Positions 18,763 to 26,454 of a DNA stretch of 64,000 nt are shown one piece after another. The stretch is from Geothrix sp. SG200 (GTDB lineage: Bacteria; Acidobacteriota; Holophagae; Holophagales; Holophagaceae), in NCBI RefSeq assembly GCF_022808935.1, contig NZ_JAKZFR010000006.1, forward strand, positions 124,001 to 188,000. Direction: 5' to 3'. The first letter of the stretch is position 1, and each line of letters begins with the position of its first letter. The notes under the pieces are model-generated. The model did no database searches. It saw nothing but the letters and a program-made list of their open reading frames with translations, and was not told the origin of the DNA. Both the position numbers and the translations under genes were made by a program.

Positions 18763-19449
18763 ATGCGGTTCGTGCCCCAGATCCCTTCCCACGCTGATCC
18801 CGGTCCCTGGGTCCCCCTGGCGCCCCTGACCCTGCGGTGGGAGGTCGGCCTGCATCCCGACTGGTCCACCCTTGCGCGCCGGGGTCTGGCCATTCACGCC
18901 GTCCATCTGTCCGGCGAGTCGCCGGTGGAAGACGGGCTCGCGGTTCTCCACGCCTCGCTCGGCCCGGATTTCCTCATCCTGCCCACCATTCGTCCGCAGA
19001 CCCGCGAGGCGGGCTTCCGCCTGCTGGGCCACCTGGAGACCCTGCTGGAGGCCGCCAGCGGCCGCGGCGCGAAGATCGCCCTGAGCATTGAGGGCGGGGC
19101 CGAGGCCGCCGTGCTGGACCTGCTGGCCCAGGCCAAGGCCGACGCCGTGGGCTTCTGCTGGCACCCGGCCACGGTGGACGCGGCGCGCCTGGCGGACCGC
19201 CTCTGGTGCGGCGTCTGCGGGCCGACCTCGGACCTGCGCCCGCTCCAGAAGCTGGGCTACCGCTGGGACATGGCCCTGCCCGCGGAGGATCCCGCCACCT
19301 TCCGGGCGCAGGCCGCCGCGCTGGCGGCCGCCCATCCCGAGGTGATCTTCCCCGAGGAGATCCTGCCCCCGGGCCTGGACCGCGCGGCCGAGCCGCCGGA
19401 GGGTTTCGCCTTCGGTCGGCACTGGGGTCCCACGGGGAACCGTTCATGA
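18763..19449 (+). CDS. hypothetical protein coupled to lpxB
   Basis: A 228-aa protein without signal peptide or membrane helix. The alternating strand-helix rhythm (LAIHAVHLSG, PDFLILPTIRPQ, AKIALSIEGG, ADAVGFCWHPA) suggests a TIM-barrel sugar-phosphate-isomerase-like fold, but I cannot name a family. Its stop overlaps the lpxB ATG (ATGA), so it is translationally coupled to lipid A synthesis. The start is uncertain: ATG at 18763 has no clear ribosome binding site and 18745 is an alternative. It is divergent from the DUF2203-like gene. Confidence 0.7.
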   Translation: MRFVPQIPSHADPGPWVPLAPLTLRWEVGLHPDWSTLARRGLAIHAVHLSGESPVEDGLAVLHASLGPDFLILPTIRPQTREAGFRLLGHLETLLEAASGRGAKIALSIEGGAEAAVLDLLAQAKADAVGFCWHPATVDAARLADRLWCGVCGPTSDLRPLQKLGYRWDMALPAEDPATFRAQAAALAAAHPEVIFPEEILPPGLDRAAEPPEGFAFGRHWGPTGNRS

Positions 19450-20603
19450 CGAAGACCCTGCTGGTCATCGCAGGCGAGGATTCCGGCGACCTCCACGGCG
19501 CGGAGCTGCTGCGGGAGCTGAAGGCCCGCCGGCCCGACCTGCGCCTCGTGGGCGTCGGCGGCCCGCGCATGAGCCCCTTCCTGGACCGCAAGCTGGCGGA
19601 CGTGAAGGATCTCGCCGTGGTGGGCTTCGTGGAGGTCATCAAGCACCTGCCGCGCCTGAACCGGCTGTTCAAGGCCATCCTGGCCGCCGCGACGGAGGAG
19701 CAGGTGGCCGGCGCCCTGCTCATCGACTACCCGGGCTTCAACCTGCGGCTGGCCAAGGCCCTGCGGAAGCAGCTGCCCACGGTGACCCTGCACCAGTACG
19801 TGTGCCCCCAGGTGTGGGCCTGGAAGAAGGGGCGCATTCCCGAGCTGGGCACCGTACTGAACACGCTCTACTGCCTCTTCGACTTCGAGCCCGAGCTGTT
19901 CCGCGGCTACCCCGTGGACGCGCGCTTCGTGGGCCACCCCCTGGTGGAGGTGGTGAAGCCCGAGTGCGACCGCGCCGCCTTCTTCGCCGAGACCGGCCTC
20001 GACCCCGCGCGGCCCCTGGTGGCCCTGCTGCCCGGCAGCCGCAAGGGCGAGATCGAGCGCCTGCTGCCGCCCATGGCGGAACTGGCCCGGCGATGGCGCA
20101 CGGCCCAGTCCGAGGTCCAGTCCGAGGTCCAGTGGGTGCTGCCCGTGGCCCCCACGCTGGACCCCGCCTTCGTGCGCGCGCACCTGGGCCCAACGCAGGA
20201 TCCGGCCCCCGTGACGCTGGTGCAGGACCGCCCCTACGCCGCCCGCGCCCACGCGGACGCGGCCCTGGTGGCCTCCGGCACCGCCACCCTGGAGACGGCC
20301 CTGCTGGGCACCCCCTTCGCCATCGTCTACAAGCTGAACGCCCTCACCTACGAGATGGCCAAGCGCGTCGTGAAGGTCCCCTACTTCGGCCTCGCCAACG
20401 TCGTGGCCCGCCGCGAAGTGGCCCCCGAGCTGCTCCAGGGCGAGGTGAACCCCGAGCGCCTGGGCGTGGAGCTGGCGCGGCTGCTGGATCCCGAGGTGGC
20501 TCGGCGCGTGCGCGCCGACCTGGGCGAGATGCGCGGCCACCTGGGAGAGCCGGGGGCTGCAGGGCGCGTGGCCGAGGATCTGCTGGGGAAGCTCCAAGCC
20601 TGA
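19446..20603 (+). CDS. lpxB: lipid-A-disaccharide synthase
   Basis: Glycosyltransferase (GT19) of 385 aa that joins UDP-diacylglucosamine and lipid X in lipid A synthesis, so the organism has an LPS-bearing outer membrane. Typical segments are VIAGEDSGDLHGAELL at the N-terminus, QYVCPQVWAWKKGRI near 120, LLPGSRKGEI near 198 and ASGTATLETALLGTPF near 275. It contains a short in-frame duplication of four residues (SEVQSEVQ) around 20108-20132, probably recent slippage in a loop. No other lpx gene is nearby. It is the last ordinary chromosomal gene before the cassette-like region. Confidence 0.95.
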   Translation: MTKTLLVIAGEDSGDLHGAELLRELKARRPDLRLVGVGGPRMSPFLDRKLADVKDLAVVGFVEVIKHLPRLNRLFKAILAAATEEQVAGALLIDYPGFNLRLAKALRKQLPTVTLHQYVCPQVWAWKKGRIPELGTVLNTLYCLFDFEPELFRGYPVDARFVGHPLVEVVKPECDRAAFFAETGLDPARPLVALLPGSRKGEIERLLPPMAELARRWRTAQSEVQSEVQWVLPVAPTLDPAFVRAHLGPTQDPAPVTLVQDRPYAARAHADAALVASGTATLETALLGTPFAIVYKLNALTYEMAKRVVKVPYFGLANVVARREVAPELLQGEVNPERLGVELARLLDPEVARRVRADLGEMRGHLGEPGAAGRVAEDLLGKLQA

Positions 20604-20689: not shown

Positions 20690-20778
20690 CACTTCCGTTC
20701 GCCCCCGGTTTTGCCACCGTTCGGCAGAGAAAGGACCCGGTGATCTACAATGCCGGTATCGTTCCTTCATCCATTATC

Positions 20779-20826
20779 TGACAACGAGCTCAGGACGGGT
20801 TTGGTCGTCCAATTCAGAGTTAGGGC
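20779..20826 (+). repeat. short attC-like site or core site at array start
   Basis: The sequence ends in GTTAGGGC at 20819-20826, which fits the recombination core GTTRRRY except at its last base. It is the exact reverse complement of GCCCTAAC at 21286-21293, the left end of the first full attC-like site, as expected for the two ends of one cassette. Upstream, GGACG and CGTCC form a small stem and TGACAAC sits at the left. This may be a short 47-nt attC or an attachment site of another kind. Confidence 0.55.
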
Positions 20827-20842
20827 TTTACGAGGAGCCATC

Positions 20843-21292
20843 ATGGCCAACCGCAATCCCGAGCAAACCTTAATCAATCAATTCGTAGCCCACTTGAGAA
20901 GGCACCCTGATCCAAACATTTGCATCGGTGAGTTAATTAACAGTAATTGCAAATCAAAATCACGCGCTGACATCGAATACAAATCCAAGGGGGACCTCCA
21001 TTGGGCCATCGAAGCCAAGAGTGATGACTCAAAAGATAGGCACAACACTGTGCATAAAATATTTGGTGAGCTTCTCAAAGAGACAGGGCGAACGAATCGA
21101 GAAAATTGCCGTCATGCAATCTTGATTCCCGAAAATGCTCTCACTTTCTATAGTCGGGCATTTCAAGCCATTGATCGTGCCAAGTTCTTAGACTTTGGTG
21201 AACTCATTCCAGTTCATGCTGTTTTCACGAGTAGTCATGTCGGTATCAAACAAATCACTTGGTCCGAGCTTTACGATGCCCACCAGCCCTAA
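20843..21292 (+). CDS. PD-(D/E)XK nuclease-like cassette protein
   Basis: A 149-aa protein, the ORF of the first cassette. It has the full pattern of the PD-(D/E)XK nuclease fold: a Glu in the first helix (NPEQTLINQF), then ADIEYKSKG with the metal-binding Asp and HWAIEAKS with the E-x-K, followed by a helix (IFGELLKETG). It may cut DNA, for instance in defence, but the family cannot be named. GAGGAG lies upstream of ATG 20843; a longer reading from 20750 crosses the cassette boundary and is not likely. The stop codon TAA lies inside the left box of the attC-like site, as is common in integron cassettes. Confidence 0.72.
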   Translation: MANRNPEQTLINQFVAHLRRHPDPNICIGELINSNCKSKSRADIEYKSKGDLHWAIEAKSDDSKDRHNTVHKIFGELLKETGRTNRENCRHAILIPENALTFYSRAFQAIDRAKFLDFGELIPVHAVFTSSHVGIKQITWSELYDAHQP

Positions 21293-21410
21293 CCCTCAGC
21301 TCAACTCGGACCCCGCATGCATTGACCGCCGCTCTCTCTCAACTTCTCGCTTCCTCGACTCCTTTCAGCACCTCGGTGCAGGCGGGGCCAGTTAGCTTCA
21401 TCTGTTCGAC
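21287..21410 (+). repeat. attC-like recombination site 1
   Basis: A 124-nt imperfect palindrome. Left box CCCTAAC (21287-21293), inner left arm AGCTCAACTCGGACCCCGC; inner right arm GCGGGGCCAGTTAGCT; right box GTTCGAC (21404-21410). The two inner arms pair apart from extra bases on the left arm (the C before AAC, the C in CTCGG and the A in GGACC), the extrahelical bases that orient attC recombination. Cleavage is expected after the G at 21404. The right box GTTCGAC nearly matches the complement of the next module's GTCTAAC. Confidence 0.75.
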
Positions 21411-21440
21411 GCAACTCTCTTTTCCCAACATGGAGTCACT

Positions 21441-22409
21441 GTGAGCAGAAAAATATCCCTCCAAGTTCAACAAGAAGACGTTGGTGAGGCGGTTCGTGCT
21501 CGCTACACAATGACTTCGTCAATTCTCAGGGCGATGTTGTACTCGACCAAGGCTGATATCATCTCGGCCCTTGGAGGCCTTGAAAAAATAACCCTTGAGC
21601 AGCTTGGAACCGTCTACAAAGAAGGGGATGGAGAGTTCGGTATTTGTTTTGAATACGCAGTTCATGATGCCGTTCGGGCCCGAGATTCAACTATTTACCC
21701 GATCGTAGAAGACGTTCTTGACTCGTTCTGTAGGATTCGTGGCACATCAGAATCCATCCTCTTCGGTATCGAGAAGAATGGAAGTCTAAATATTGTTGAG
21801 ACTGCAAAAAACAGTCTTACCGACGATGCAAGAGTGTTAGTCGGGAAAGTTGGAAAACCCCCTAAGCTCAAGCATCGAATTGCGACGTTAGAGCGCGCCT
21901 TTAGAAGTGTAAAGCACCGCGATAGACTTCCGAACTGCATAAGTGGGTTATGGAAAGCTGATTTATTTTTAGGATCGCCGAGTTCAGATCAATGGGTAGG
22001 AACTACCCTTAAGTTAAACAAAGAAGAATTGGAAGCAGCTCCTGGATTACGGGTTGGTATCTATCCATCTAAAACAAAAGAAGGGCCAAAACAGGACAGC
22101 TTGAAAAATATGATTCTCTGTCCGATGCCGTACCGTGGTGATTTTATGGTTTTGTTCCAAGCAAGTTTCAATATTGCCAAACAATTAATGCATTCACGTG
22201 GGGAGATGCCTAAACCTCCAGCCATTATTTACGAGGATGATCTCTCCGTGGCGGAATGGCTGAGCGCTCGGCGTAAATTCCCAGTAATGGGTATTCTGGA
22301 AGCGCTCCACCCACTAATGCAACCCGGATTAATTAAGGCCAGCGACTCTAAAGAATCAATCGCCAGCTCGGGCATTGAAGCTTTCGCGCCTATACCACTA
22401 ATTCTTTAG
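21441..22409 (+). CDS. unknown cassette protein, possible nuclease-like fold
   Basis: A 322-aa protein, the ORF of the second cassette, starting with GTG 31 bp after the cassette boundary. I do not recognise it. A Glu-rich helix (GICFEYAVHDAVRAR) is followed later by GLWKADLFLGSPSSDQWVGT and then TLKLN, an order that could be a diverged E...D...(E)xK nuclease core with Thr in place of the second acidic residue. This is a weak inference. No signal peptide or membrane helix is present. Its AT-rich codon use contrasts sharply with genes on both sides of the array, in line with transfer from a different genome. Confidence 0.6.
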   Translation: MSRKISLQVQQEDVGEAVRARYTMTSSILRAMLYSTKADIISALGGLEKITLEQLGTVYKEGDGEFGICFEYAVHDAVRARDSTIYPIVEDVLDSFCRIRGTSESILFGIEKNGSLNIVETAKNSLTDDARVLVGKVGKPPKLKHRIATLERAFRSVKHRDRLPNCISGLWKADLFLGSPSSDQWVGTTLKLNKEELEAAPGLRVGIYPSKTKEGPKQDSLKNMILCPMPYRGDFMVLFQASFNIAKQLMHSRGEMPKPPAIIYEDDLSVAEWLSARRKFPVMGILEALHPLMQPGLIKASDSKESIASSGIEAFAPIPLIL

Positions 22410-22422
22410 CTGCTGGTTGCGG

Positions 22423-22546
22423 GTCTAACCTGGCGCTCAACCTGGACCCCGCCTGCATTGTCTCTCGCTCCTTCTCTTCGTTCGTCTTCCCCGGCTCCGT
22501 TCATCGTCTCGGTGTAGGCGGGGCCGGCTCGCTTCATTCGTCAGGC
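22423..22546 (+). repeat. attC-like recombination site 2
   Basis: A 124-nt imperfect palindrome, the same length as site 1. Left box GTCTAAC (22423-22429), inner left arm GCGCTCAACCTGGACCCCGC, inner right arm GGCGGGGCCGGCTCGC, right box GTCAGGC (22540-22546). The inner arms pair with extra bases on the left. Both sites share the central left words CTCAAC and GACCCCGC. The right box has GTC where the consensus is GTT, so it may be a weaker or decayed site. The stop of the upstream ORF lies 13 bp before the left box. Confidence 0.75.
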
Positions 22547-22563
22547 CATCTGGAGATAGGAAC

Positions 22564-23424
22564 ATGCTCAAACAGCCCCTCCGAATCCTGTTGGCCTGCG
22601 CCTCCACGTTTGGTATTTGCCAGGGATTACCGAGTCAATTAAAGCTAGGTGGGTACCAGTTGGGTCAGGTTGCCAGGGTGGTCGAAGCCACCCTCGGGAA
22701 ACCCTATGAGGAGCGGACCACCTCAGATGGCTGGCTGATCAAAGCCTTCTGGACCTCCGAAAAACATGAGCACCTGCTGATTTTCGAGTTCGCGGCGCCC
22801 AAGAAGGATCGCATCACCGCGATCCAGCTCTTCGGGAAGCCGACGCCGGGGGATGGGGGTCTCCCCGGGGTTACGCTCGGCTCGACCGAAAGCGAGGTGT
22901 TCAAGGCGCTCGGCCCGCCCAAGTCGAAATCGAAGTATTTGGATGACGGCACCGAATACGCGCGCCTCGACTACGCCGATCGAAATTACAGCTTAGAGCT
23001 CAATCATGAGGGCTTGGTTGTCAGCATCAGGATTCTGGGATTCGATGGCTTCTCGAAAGAGGTTCCGCCTCTACCCACCGCTGAAGGCTTGAAGAAGATC
23101 ATGGCAAAGCAGGATCCGGCGGCTCTGGAAGCCATGCTTACGCCAGATTTCGAATTTTATAGGGGCGACAACATCATTTCTTATAATGGTCCCTCCGAAC
23201 ATGAAATTCGCTCCAATTCCAAGATCAAAGAGGCCATCTACGGCCCGCTGGGTCTCAATGAGGCACTGTCAAGAAAAGACGCCCAGGAAGACCCCCAGAT
23301 CAGGCTCTCCGAGAGCGGTGTCTTCCATGTCATCAAGTTCCCGAAGAGTGCTGTTCTTAATGAGATCGTCTTCGCTCTGTTTGCAGGTAGTTGGCGAATC
23401 TATGAAGTCAGCTTCAAGTCGTAG
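22564..23424 (+). CDS. secreted hypothetical protein, third cassette
   Basis: A 286-aa protein with a signal peptide (about 1-21) whose ORF starts 17 bp after the right box of attC-like site 2. The mature part is mixed alpha/beta and contains KLGGYQLGQVARVVEATLGKP and, near residue 95, LPGVTLGSTESEVFKALGPP. These two look like repeated units of the kind seen in secreted lipoproteins that start with G-x-xLG-x-T-x-x-V. No catalytic motif. Base composition is between that of the first two cassettes and the chromosome. GATAGGAAC lies before the ATG. Confidence 0.65.
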   Translation: MLKQPLRILLACASTFGICQGLPSQLKLGGYQLGQVARVVEATLGKPYEERTTSDGWLIKAFWTSEKHEHLLIFEFAAPKKDRITAIQLFGKPTPGDGGLPGVTLGSTESEVFKALGPPKSKSKYLDDGTEYARLDYADRNYSLELNHEGLVVSIRILGFDGFSKEVPPLPTAEGLKKIMAKQDPAALEAMLTPDFEFYRGDNIISYNGPSEHEIRSNSKIKEAIYGPLGLNEALSRKDAQEDPQIRLSESGVFHVIKFPKSAVLNEIVFALFAGSWRIYEVSFKS

Positions 23425-23431
23425 CACCCAA

Positions 23432-23458
23432 GCCTGACCATCCACTCGAATTGCACCG
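23432..23458 (+). repeat. left half of a third attC-like site (truncated)
   Basis: GCCTGAC at 23432-23438 is the exact reverse complement of GTCAGGC at 22540-22546, the left end of the third cassette. The next bases resemble the inner left arm of site 2 (ACTCGAATTGCACCGCGC against GCTCAACCTGGACCCCGC, 12 of 18 equal). No matching right arm follows before the next gene at 23478. The site looks cut by a deletion, which ends the array here. Confidence 0.6.
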
Positions 23459-23477
23459 CGCCCGCAAAGGATCTTCC

Positions 23478-24719: not shown

Positions 24720-25244
24720 ATGACGGTATCCGTCTTTGTGGGGACGAGCGTGGACGGGTTCATCGCCCGGCCGAACCACGACCTGGACTGGCTGCCGGAG
24801 GGGGGCGGGGAGGACCACGGCTTCGGGGCCTTCCTGGCGGGCATCGATGCGGTGGTCATGGGGCGCAAGACCTTCAAGAAGGTGCTGACCTTCGACCCCT
24901 GGCCCTACGGGTCCAAGCGGGTGGTGGTGCTGAGCGGCCAGCCGCTCAAGCTGCCGAGCGCCATCGGGCGGGTGGTGGAGCAGATGGCGGGCCCACCGGC
25001 GGAGATTGTGGCCCGGCTGGCGGAGCGCGGGGCCACGAACCTCTACGTGGACGGCGGCATCACCATCCAGCGGTTCCTGCGGGCGGGGCTGGTGGACCGC
25101 CTCATCATCACCCGGGTTCCGGTGCTGATCGGCGAGGGCATCCCGCTCTTCAGCACCCTTCCGCACGACCTCCACCTGCGCCACGTCGCCACCCGGTCCT
25201 TCCCCAGCGGCCTGGTCCAGAGCGAGTACCAGGTGCTCCGCTGA
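24720..25244 (+). CDS. dihydrofolate reductase-family protein (RibD C-terminal type)
   Basis: A 174-aa protein of the RibD-C/DHFR-like fold, an NADPH-dependent reductase by family. It has SVFVGTSVDGFIARPNHDLDWL at the start, DAVVMGRKTFKKV in the middle and LYVDGGITIQRFL for the nucleotide-binding loop. It is a stand-alone domain; members of this group are often annotated as YyaP-like reductases with unknown substrates. GGGGGAGGG precedes the ATG. It is convergent with the cupin gene to the right. Confidence 0.85.
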   Translation: MTVSVFVGTSVDGFIARPNHDLDWLPEGGGEDHGFGAFLAGIDAVVMGRKTFKKVLTFDPWPYGSKRVVVLSGQPLKLPSAIGRVVEQMAGPPAEIVARLAERGATNLYVDGGITIQRFLRAGLVDRLIITRVPVLIGEGIPLFSTLPHDLHLRHVATRSFPSGLVQSEYQVLR

Positions 25245-25938: not shown

Positions 25939-26454
25939 ATGCTTCCCAGTCTGTTGATGCTTCCCATGGCGGTCCTCCAGGCCCCGGCGCCCCTGCCGGT
26001 GGTGGAGGCCAAGGACCTTCCCAAGGCCCCCCGGGGCCCCATGACCCCCCATCGCCCGGATCCCGGCGGCGAGGCCAGCATCCTGGGCGAGACCCGGCAC
26101 GGGGCCCGGAAGGGGCCGTCCATCCCGGCTCTCCAGCTGCCCGCGGGCAGCGTCCGGGTGATGGACAAGGTTCCCGACATGAGCGGGCGGCGGGCCTTCG
26201 CCATCGAGGTGCCGGCGGGCGGCAAGGTGAAGGCACAGGTCGTGGAGGGCCGGAAGGCCTGGTTCCGGGTGCTGGCCGTGAACGCCTGGGGGCGCGACGA
26301 GCCGGGGCTGCTCCAGAACCGGATCCCCACCGGCGAGCCCCAGGCCACCTATGAGAACCCCACGAAGGAGACGCGCACCATCTACTTCATCGTGGACACC
26401 CTCGACGCCAACATGGTCGGCGAGTCCTACACGCTGGAAGTCACCCGGAACTAG
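25939..26454 (+). CDS. secreted hypothetical protein
   Basis: A 171-aa protein with a hydrophobic N-terminus (MLPSLLMLPMAVLQAPAP), a Pro-rich stretch and a C-terminal beta-rich part (about 80-170) ending YTLEVTRN. The end has the rhythm of a small beta-sandwich (AFAIEVPAGGKVKAQVVEG, TIYFIVDTLDANMVGESY), compatible with a pre-peptidase-like C-terminal domain, but no known motif is certain. GGAGG lies just before the ATG at 25939, while the longer ORF starts without one. Convergent with the next gene. Confidence 0.65.
   Translation: MLPSLLMLPMAVLQAPAPLPVVEAKDLPKAPRGPMTPHRPDPGGEASILGETRHGARKGPSIPALQLPAGSVRVMDKVPDMSGRRAFAIEVPAGGKVKAQVVEGRKAWFRVLAVNAWGRDEPGLLQNRIPTGEPQATYENPTKETRTIYFIVDTLDANMVGESYTLEVTRN

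Follow-up and report, generated by a model that had tools for sequence, protein, structure and literature searches.

Large sedentary chromosomal integrons of the Vibrio type comprise one intI and many cassettes, with attC sites that are highly similar within a genome. CALINs are usually regarded as leftovers. CALINs, their possible origins and integrons of Acidobacteriota are already on record (PMC8618304, PMC8352920). In Xanthomonas, CALINs occupy conserved chromosomal positions apart from ilvD (PMC12444791). For the Shewanella prophage M16-3, a CALIN with its own attI was described beside a complete integron carrying the same attI (PMC9892861), while the Delta-attI cassettes of class 1 and 2 integrons have attI in place of attC at their end and serve as substrates of IntI/IntI1 (PMC12901181).

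The array described here follows lpxB in the genome of a Geothrix, a genus of soil and sediment bacteria, of 3.36 Mb in 10 contigs and lies in a stretch of 64 kb, which was analysed as a whole (G000:C7:124001-188000, the window in the following). With a probability of about 85%, we regard it as a CALIN of the resident chromosomal Geothrix integron, served by IntI in trans, with cassettes entering and leaving as at the main array. Like the Vibrio type, Geothrix has one intI, many cassettes and similar attC within the genome, but whereas the Vibrio arrays are contiguous and stand beside intI, those of Geothrix are dispersed and the additional ones carry their own attI core. Compared to Xanthomonas, as far as the available part of that report goes, the common features are intI-less attC clusters at conserved loci, an ancestral chromosomal integron in the genus and an assumed mobilisation in trans; the differences are that the Geothrix array starts at an attI core, heads of this kind being undescribed there for Xanthomonas, and that the cassettes at this locus vary among the sister species of Geothrix (PMC12444791). 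As in M16-3, the CALIN is headed by its own attI, but in contrast to this single prophage case Geothrix has several such arrays per genome and has them in many species (PMC9892861). The Delta-attI cassettes are comparable to a 221-bp attI-ended element of Geothrix, which differs from them by having no evident gene and by its occurrence at 90-96% identity in several species (PMC12901181). A literature search outside most subscription journals found no work on Geothrix integrons and none on several attI platforms under one integrase. While CALINs as such are known, a genome with many attI-headed arrays and a single IntI seems to represent a variant not described before. If several attI-headed arrays indeed share one integrase, a single control would govern the storage and insertion of cassettes at several sites of the chromosome, and both the counting of arrays and the views of CALIN origin would change. 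Furthermore, cassette turnover can be traced directly by comparing the orthologous arrays of sister species.

The anatomy of the array was read directly from the window and is summarised in Table 1.

Table 1. Features of the lpxB locus, with positions counted from the first base of the window.
Feature	Position	Strand	Remarks
lpxB, left flank of the island	19446..20603	+	94-96% identity to the closest sisters
Leader, ~134-nt element, ending at the crossover base	20692..20818	+	nhmmer 72-150 bits at lpxB loci of sister genomes
attI core TCGTCCAATTCAGAGTTAGG	20805..20824	+	crossover between G and TT at 20819/20820
Cassette 1	20820..21404	+	TTAGGG... to G of R'; between attI core and attC1
Cassette 1 ORF, 149 aa	20843..21292	+	GC 45%
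attC site 1	21287..21410	+	covariance model R2, 119.5 bits, E 2.4e-29
Cassette 2	21405..22540	+	between attC1 and attC2
Cassette 2 ORF, 322 aa	21441..22409	+	GC 46%
attC site 2, L' and R' degenerate	22423..22546	+	covariance model R2, 105.5 bits, E 1.2e-25
Cassette 3, older, attC reduced to left half	22541..23468	+	left end GTCAGGC = complement of GCCTGAC at 23432-23438
Cassette 3 ORF (orf3), 286 aa	22564..23424	+	93-95% identical protein in G017 and G025
Cassette 3 attC, truncated to the half with R'' and L''	23432..23468	+	26/37 consensus bases
DHFR/RibD-like reductase gene, right flank conserved in sister clade	24720..25244	+	weak NCBIfam matches to HdrA/RibD families
Conserved gene, next after lpxB in most outgroup Geothrix read	25939..26454	+	45-85 nt after lpxB match in L181-L186

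The attC sites were determined with a covariance model (R2) based on 57 distinct attC copies of the same genome, excluding those of the window, and on a structure that combines the attC boxes R''/R' and L''/L' with three extrahelical bases in the L'' arm. Such a search had been named as a check in the earlier note, whose two full 124-nt sites were recovered with exactly the same borders, while the third-best match in the 64 kb reached 8.7 bits. The extra unpaired bases on one arm, also claimed before, proved to be part of the L'' arm, in agreement with attC. Over the 57 sites, 92.9% of the cells are paired, compared to 25-49% if the partners are slid by 1-3 columns, and double changes were found at five pairs of the alignment. 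A first attC model (R1) with an RNAalifold structure paired the wrong columns and was dropped in favour of R2 and its attC boxes. In direct reading, site 1 comprises R'' CCCTAAC, L'' GCTCAAC, L' GTTAGC and R' GTTCGAC, and site 2 comprises R'' GTCTAAC, L'' GCTCAAC, L' GCTCGC and R' GTCAGGC; R' of site 1 as well as L' and R' of site 2 are degenerate. With respect to the attC sites by which a CALIN is recognised, the window has two (105 and 119 bits) in addition to a half site. Two further checks named in the note gave no support. The core word GACCCCGC occurs in 156 copies per strand, fewer than in the reversed control, and is by itself not diagnostic; the folding energy as a single strand was for neither bottom strand better than for shuffled sequences. 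Since the folding energies are unexceptional, the evidence is taken from the model and the box pattern and not from the energy.

The array had been described as three one-ORF modules bounded by attC, which holds true for the complete cassettes 1 and 2, while cassette 3 has only half an attC. The left end of the array, formerly placed at 20779, was corrected to the crossover given in Table 1. Cassettes 1 and 2 are indeed AT-rich, with a GC content of 45-46% compared to 67.6% for the window. No protein family was found for the cassette ORFs at E 0.001; in the case of cassette 1 this comprises Pfam, PADLOC and NCBIfam, and no PDB match was obtained. AlphaFold predictions for the proteins of cassettes 1 and 2 remained uninformative (mean pLDDT of 35 and 31), and a sigma-70 promoter scan of the window array and the intI-attI region yielded none. 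The protein of cassette 2 has homologs at 40-43% identity on plasmids of Streptomyces and Micromonospora; a search of the other 76 Holophagaceae genomes yielded none. The homolog on the Micromonospora maris plasmid lies immediately upstream of parA/parB. The half site of cassette 3 ranks third on the plus strand, behind attC1 and attC2, with no further position on either strand exceeding 22 consensus bases, and its box is also present in two sister genomes (L173 and L174). Since this left half of an attC follows orf3, orf3 is considered an old cassette which lost the right half of its attC. Copies of its protein, 93-95% identical and directly after the last attC, are found in G017 and G025, while the protein was not found at the lpxB locus of G006, G007, G014 and G024.

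The earlier observation that the left end of a cassette complements R'' of its own right site was tested on 53 cassettes of the genome's arrays and is both real and above chance. Beyond the 7-base core, the left end agrees with the complement of its own R'' in 87% of the cassettes at the 8th base and in 68% at the 9th base, compared to 28% and 30% for shuffled partners, and the match of own ends was reached in 0 of 1000 shuffles. In cassette 1 the complementarity extends over 9 bases, and in cassette 3 the ends match over 7 bases, sharing a non-canonical C (GTCAGGC/GCCTGAC). Judged from these ends, a circular cassette 1 would still have a perfect R box.

As had been noted, IntI is absent from the window: in contrast to a complete integron, in which intI adjoins attI and the array, no intI was found either in the stretch from lpxB to the array or in the remaining window. 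The proposed genome-wide search revealed a single IntI over the curated cut-off, which is located on contig C8 (C8:248113-249057; 468.6 bits compared to the TIGR02249 cut-off of 265). This IntI is intact, covering positions 1-315 at full length with no stops, and shows 82-88% identity to the IntI of named Geothrix species, on which the assignment of the genome to Geothrix (Acidobacteriota, Holophagaceae) is based. The covariance model gave 74 attC matches of the window type in the genome; C4, C10 and C5 harbour large arrays, and smaller groups occur on C3, C5, C6 and C7. Instead of being scattered without cassette structure, the 124-nt elements mostly stand in arrays; in the large ones, the intervals between successive sites range from 201 to 1514 bp, and all 53 scored intervals contain a forward ORF of at least 60 aa which is longer than any reverse ORF. 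Altogether, the claim that these are integron cassettes in an array with no integrase beside it is supported, and since the one IntI lies on another contig and 74 attC of the same type are present, the window array is assigned to the resident chromosomal integron. IntI from its single locus would then act in trans on the lpxB array, where the folded attC bottom strands would be recombined with the attI core and with neighbouring attC, and cassettes would be gained and lost as at the main array. Among 60 genomes searched, including the source genome, attC of this type were found in 36 of 37 Geothrix genomes and in none of the 23 genomes outside the genus.

Besides the large arrays, small attC groups or single sites were observed at G000:C3:500550-503324, C3:1949, C3:68139, C6:88780-90029, C6:188032 and C5:5506, and an attI core is also present upstream of those at C3:1949 and C6:188032. 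A second tyrosine recombinase, well below the IntI cut-off, is found ~4 kb before the start of the window (G000:C7:119660-120124, 356 aa frame) and possibly belongs to a separate island.

Downstream of cassettes 1 and 2, the locus comprises orf3, orf4, a TlpA/ResA-like thioredoxin gene, the DHFR/RibD-like reductase gene, a minus-strand cupin-like gene and the conserved gene at 25939-26454. Since the counterpart of the latter starts 45-85 nt after lpxB in six outgroups, no island is present there. In five of six sister genomes the flank CGGTCACTTTyACCC precedes the reductase gene. Between lpxB and the reductase gene, G017, G025, G006, G007 and G014 have two to four attC each; G024 shows one cassette, followed by a half attC comparable to that of cassette 3, and in G008 attC sites also follow lpxB, with the contig ending there. 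Judged from a sequence match next to intI, G017 probably represents G. terrae. The lpxB locus is occupied by attC cassettes in six or more sister genomes, and the proximal cassettes are different in each. Window cassettes 1 and 2 have no match at the lpxB loci of the sister genomes examined, none of the proximal cassettes of one species was found in another, and the other arrays read were not found to share any proximal cassette ORF with the window locus. Both the orthology of the arrays and the turnover of their cassettes are directly observable in these genomes.

The attI core at the head of the array is identical in 19 of 20 bases to the core beside intI in G. terrae, G. paludis, G. fuzhouensis and G. 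campi. Allowing up to three mismatches, it occurs twice in the 3.36 Mb, namely in the window and at C9:122-141, compared to 0 in the reversed control. The upstream motif TTAGGCGAAC, which lies ~45 nt before the crossover in the full attI, is absent at the lpxB head, and motifs of the TTAGGCGAAC type are present in several other orphan heads of the genus. An attI profile matched the 22-nt core alone at lpxB, the leader showing no homology to the attI upstream sequence. Judged from the missing motif, the lpxB head may be a look-alike target instead of a full attI. This leads to the possibility that the CALIN was founded by an off-target attC x attG insertion at a chromosomal site similar to the attI L box, in which case the head would not be a copy of attI. 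Such an insertion is a described route to CALINs, and the resemblance of the lpxB head to attI in the core alone is in line with it. Since the right half of the core would be contributed by the cassette, ~15 pre-existing bases suffice, for which ~0.3 sites per genome were estimated by chance. We consider this origin a serious candidate but lean against it. Several orphan heads of the genus carry the full attI with the upstream motif, so that copies of attI do occur. In addition, the leader is conserved in the sisters up to the crossover (weaker in G033 with 35 bits and in G008 with 18 bits, nhmmer), whereas the intergenic sequence nearer to lpxB is far less conserved, and no attI-like site was found in the lpxB intergenic region of the outgroups.

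The state of the boxes raises the question of whether the array is by now an inert fossil, which exchanged cassettes in the past at a locus that no longer recombines. The R' of attC2 reads GTC, that of attC1 GTTCGAC, half of attC3 is lost and the attI upstream motif is missing. From its sequence, the distal end with attC2 and the half attC3 looks frozen. The proximal end looks recent because of its low GC content and the homologs of cassette 2 on actinobacterial plasmids but not in the other Holophagaceae searched. Since the proximal cassettes differ even from those of sisters with 95-96% identical LpxB, and the self-complementary ends are kept in cassette 1, an array that is inert as a whole seems rather unlikely.

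It is still less probable that a complete integron once stood at lpxB and lost its intI, leaving the array as a relic. The loss of intI is a described route to CALINs, and the attI core at the head would fit. However, the ~200 nt between lpxB and the core contain no intI remnant that we could find, intI is located only elsewhere in the sister genomes with an array at this locus, and the two orphan heads of G032 show no intI relic within the stretches read. Finally, a reading of the 124-nt elements as unrelated interspersed repeats instead of recombination sites, to which the unexceptional folding energies alone might point, is in practice refuted by the R and L box pattern, the single orientation per array, the complementarity of own ends, the cassette structure and turnover, and the presence of intI and attI.

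For the preferred reading, a CALIN of the resident integron, the other attI-headed arrays of the genome are of importance, as they suggest one integrase with several landing platforms. The site at C9:122-141 has the full attI sequence and stands next to a peptidase-like gene, with no intI beside it; the contig ends shortly after this site. The terminal 127 bases are identical at the contig ends of C8 (after intI-attI), C9 (after the orphan attI) and C10 and represent the start of one cassette, while one attC is common to three other contig ends (C4, C10 and C5). These shared ends indicate a minimum of two large arrays; intI adjoins only one of the two, and each would begin with the same cassette, judged from the identity over 127 bases.

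Across 14 Geothrix genomes, the attI core pattern gave 47 matches compared to 4 for the reversed control, and IntI over the cut-off was found in 13 of them, with two each in G012 and G019. Among 30 core loci read, 8 lie beside IntI, 5 match the 221-bp attI-ended element and 17 are without IntI (tblastn). All of these 17, two of which are located in the closed genome G032, are followed by attC on the same strand; a divergent integrase-like frame lies ~1.4 kb from one of them (G012). In G032, the cores at 0.58, 1.55 and 2.64 Mb are ~0.96 Mb or more apart, intI is present at the first alone, and ~30, ~34 and three attC sites follow, respectively, within the stretches read. In G028 the best IntI matches (C18:629153 and C25:140) are partial with stop codons, and many attC remain.

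The 221-bp element carries no ORF, ends in the attI core and shows about 90-96% identity across several Geothrix species; within arrays it follows attC like a cassette. Over ~170 bp it shares 77-79% identity with the orphan heads of G032 (1.55 Mb) and G002 (1.58 Mb), a similarity which suggests that attI platforms may spread as cassettes. We tentatively extend this to a distributed integron of Geothrix, in which one integrase would serve several scattered attI-headed platforms and new ones would be seeded by mobile ORF-less attI cassettes, a reading that we place slightly below even odds. Examples of the element were observed at L055 9341-9561 (C8), L064 5787-5568, L218, L225, L240, L242 and L248. 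The first cassette (~375 bp in G001) follows both intI-attI and orphan attI sites (ends of C8, C9 and C10; L220, L233 and L228), and its two copies in G001 are 94% identical over 363 bp.
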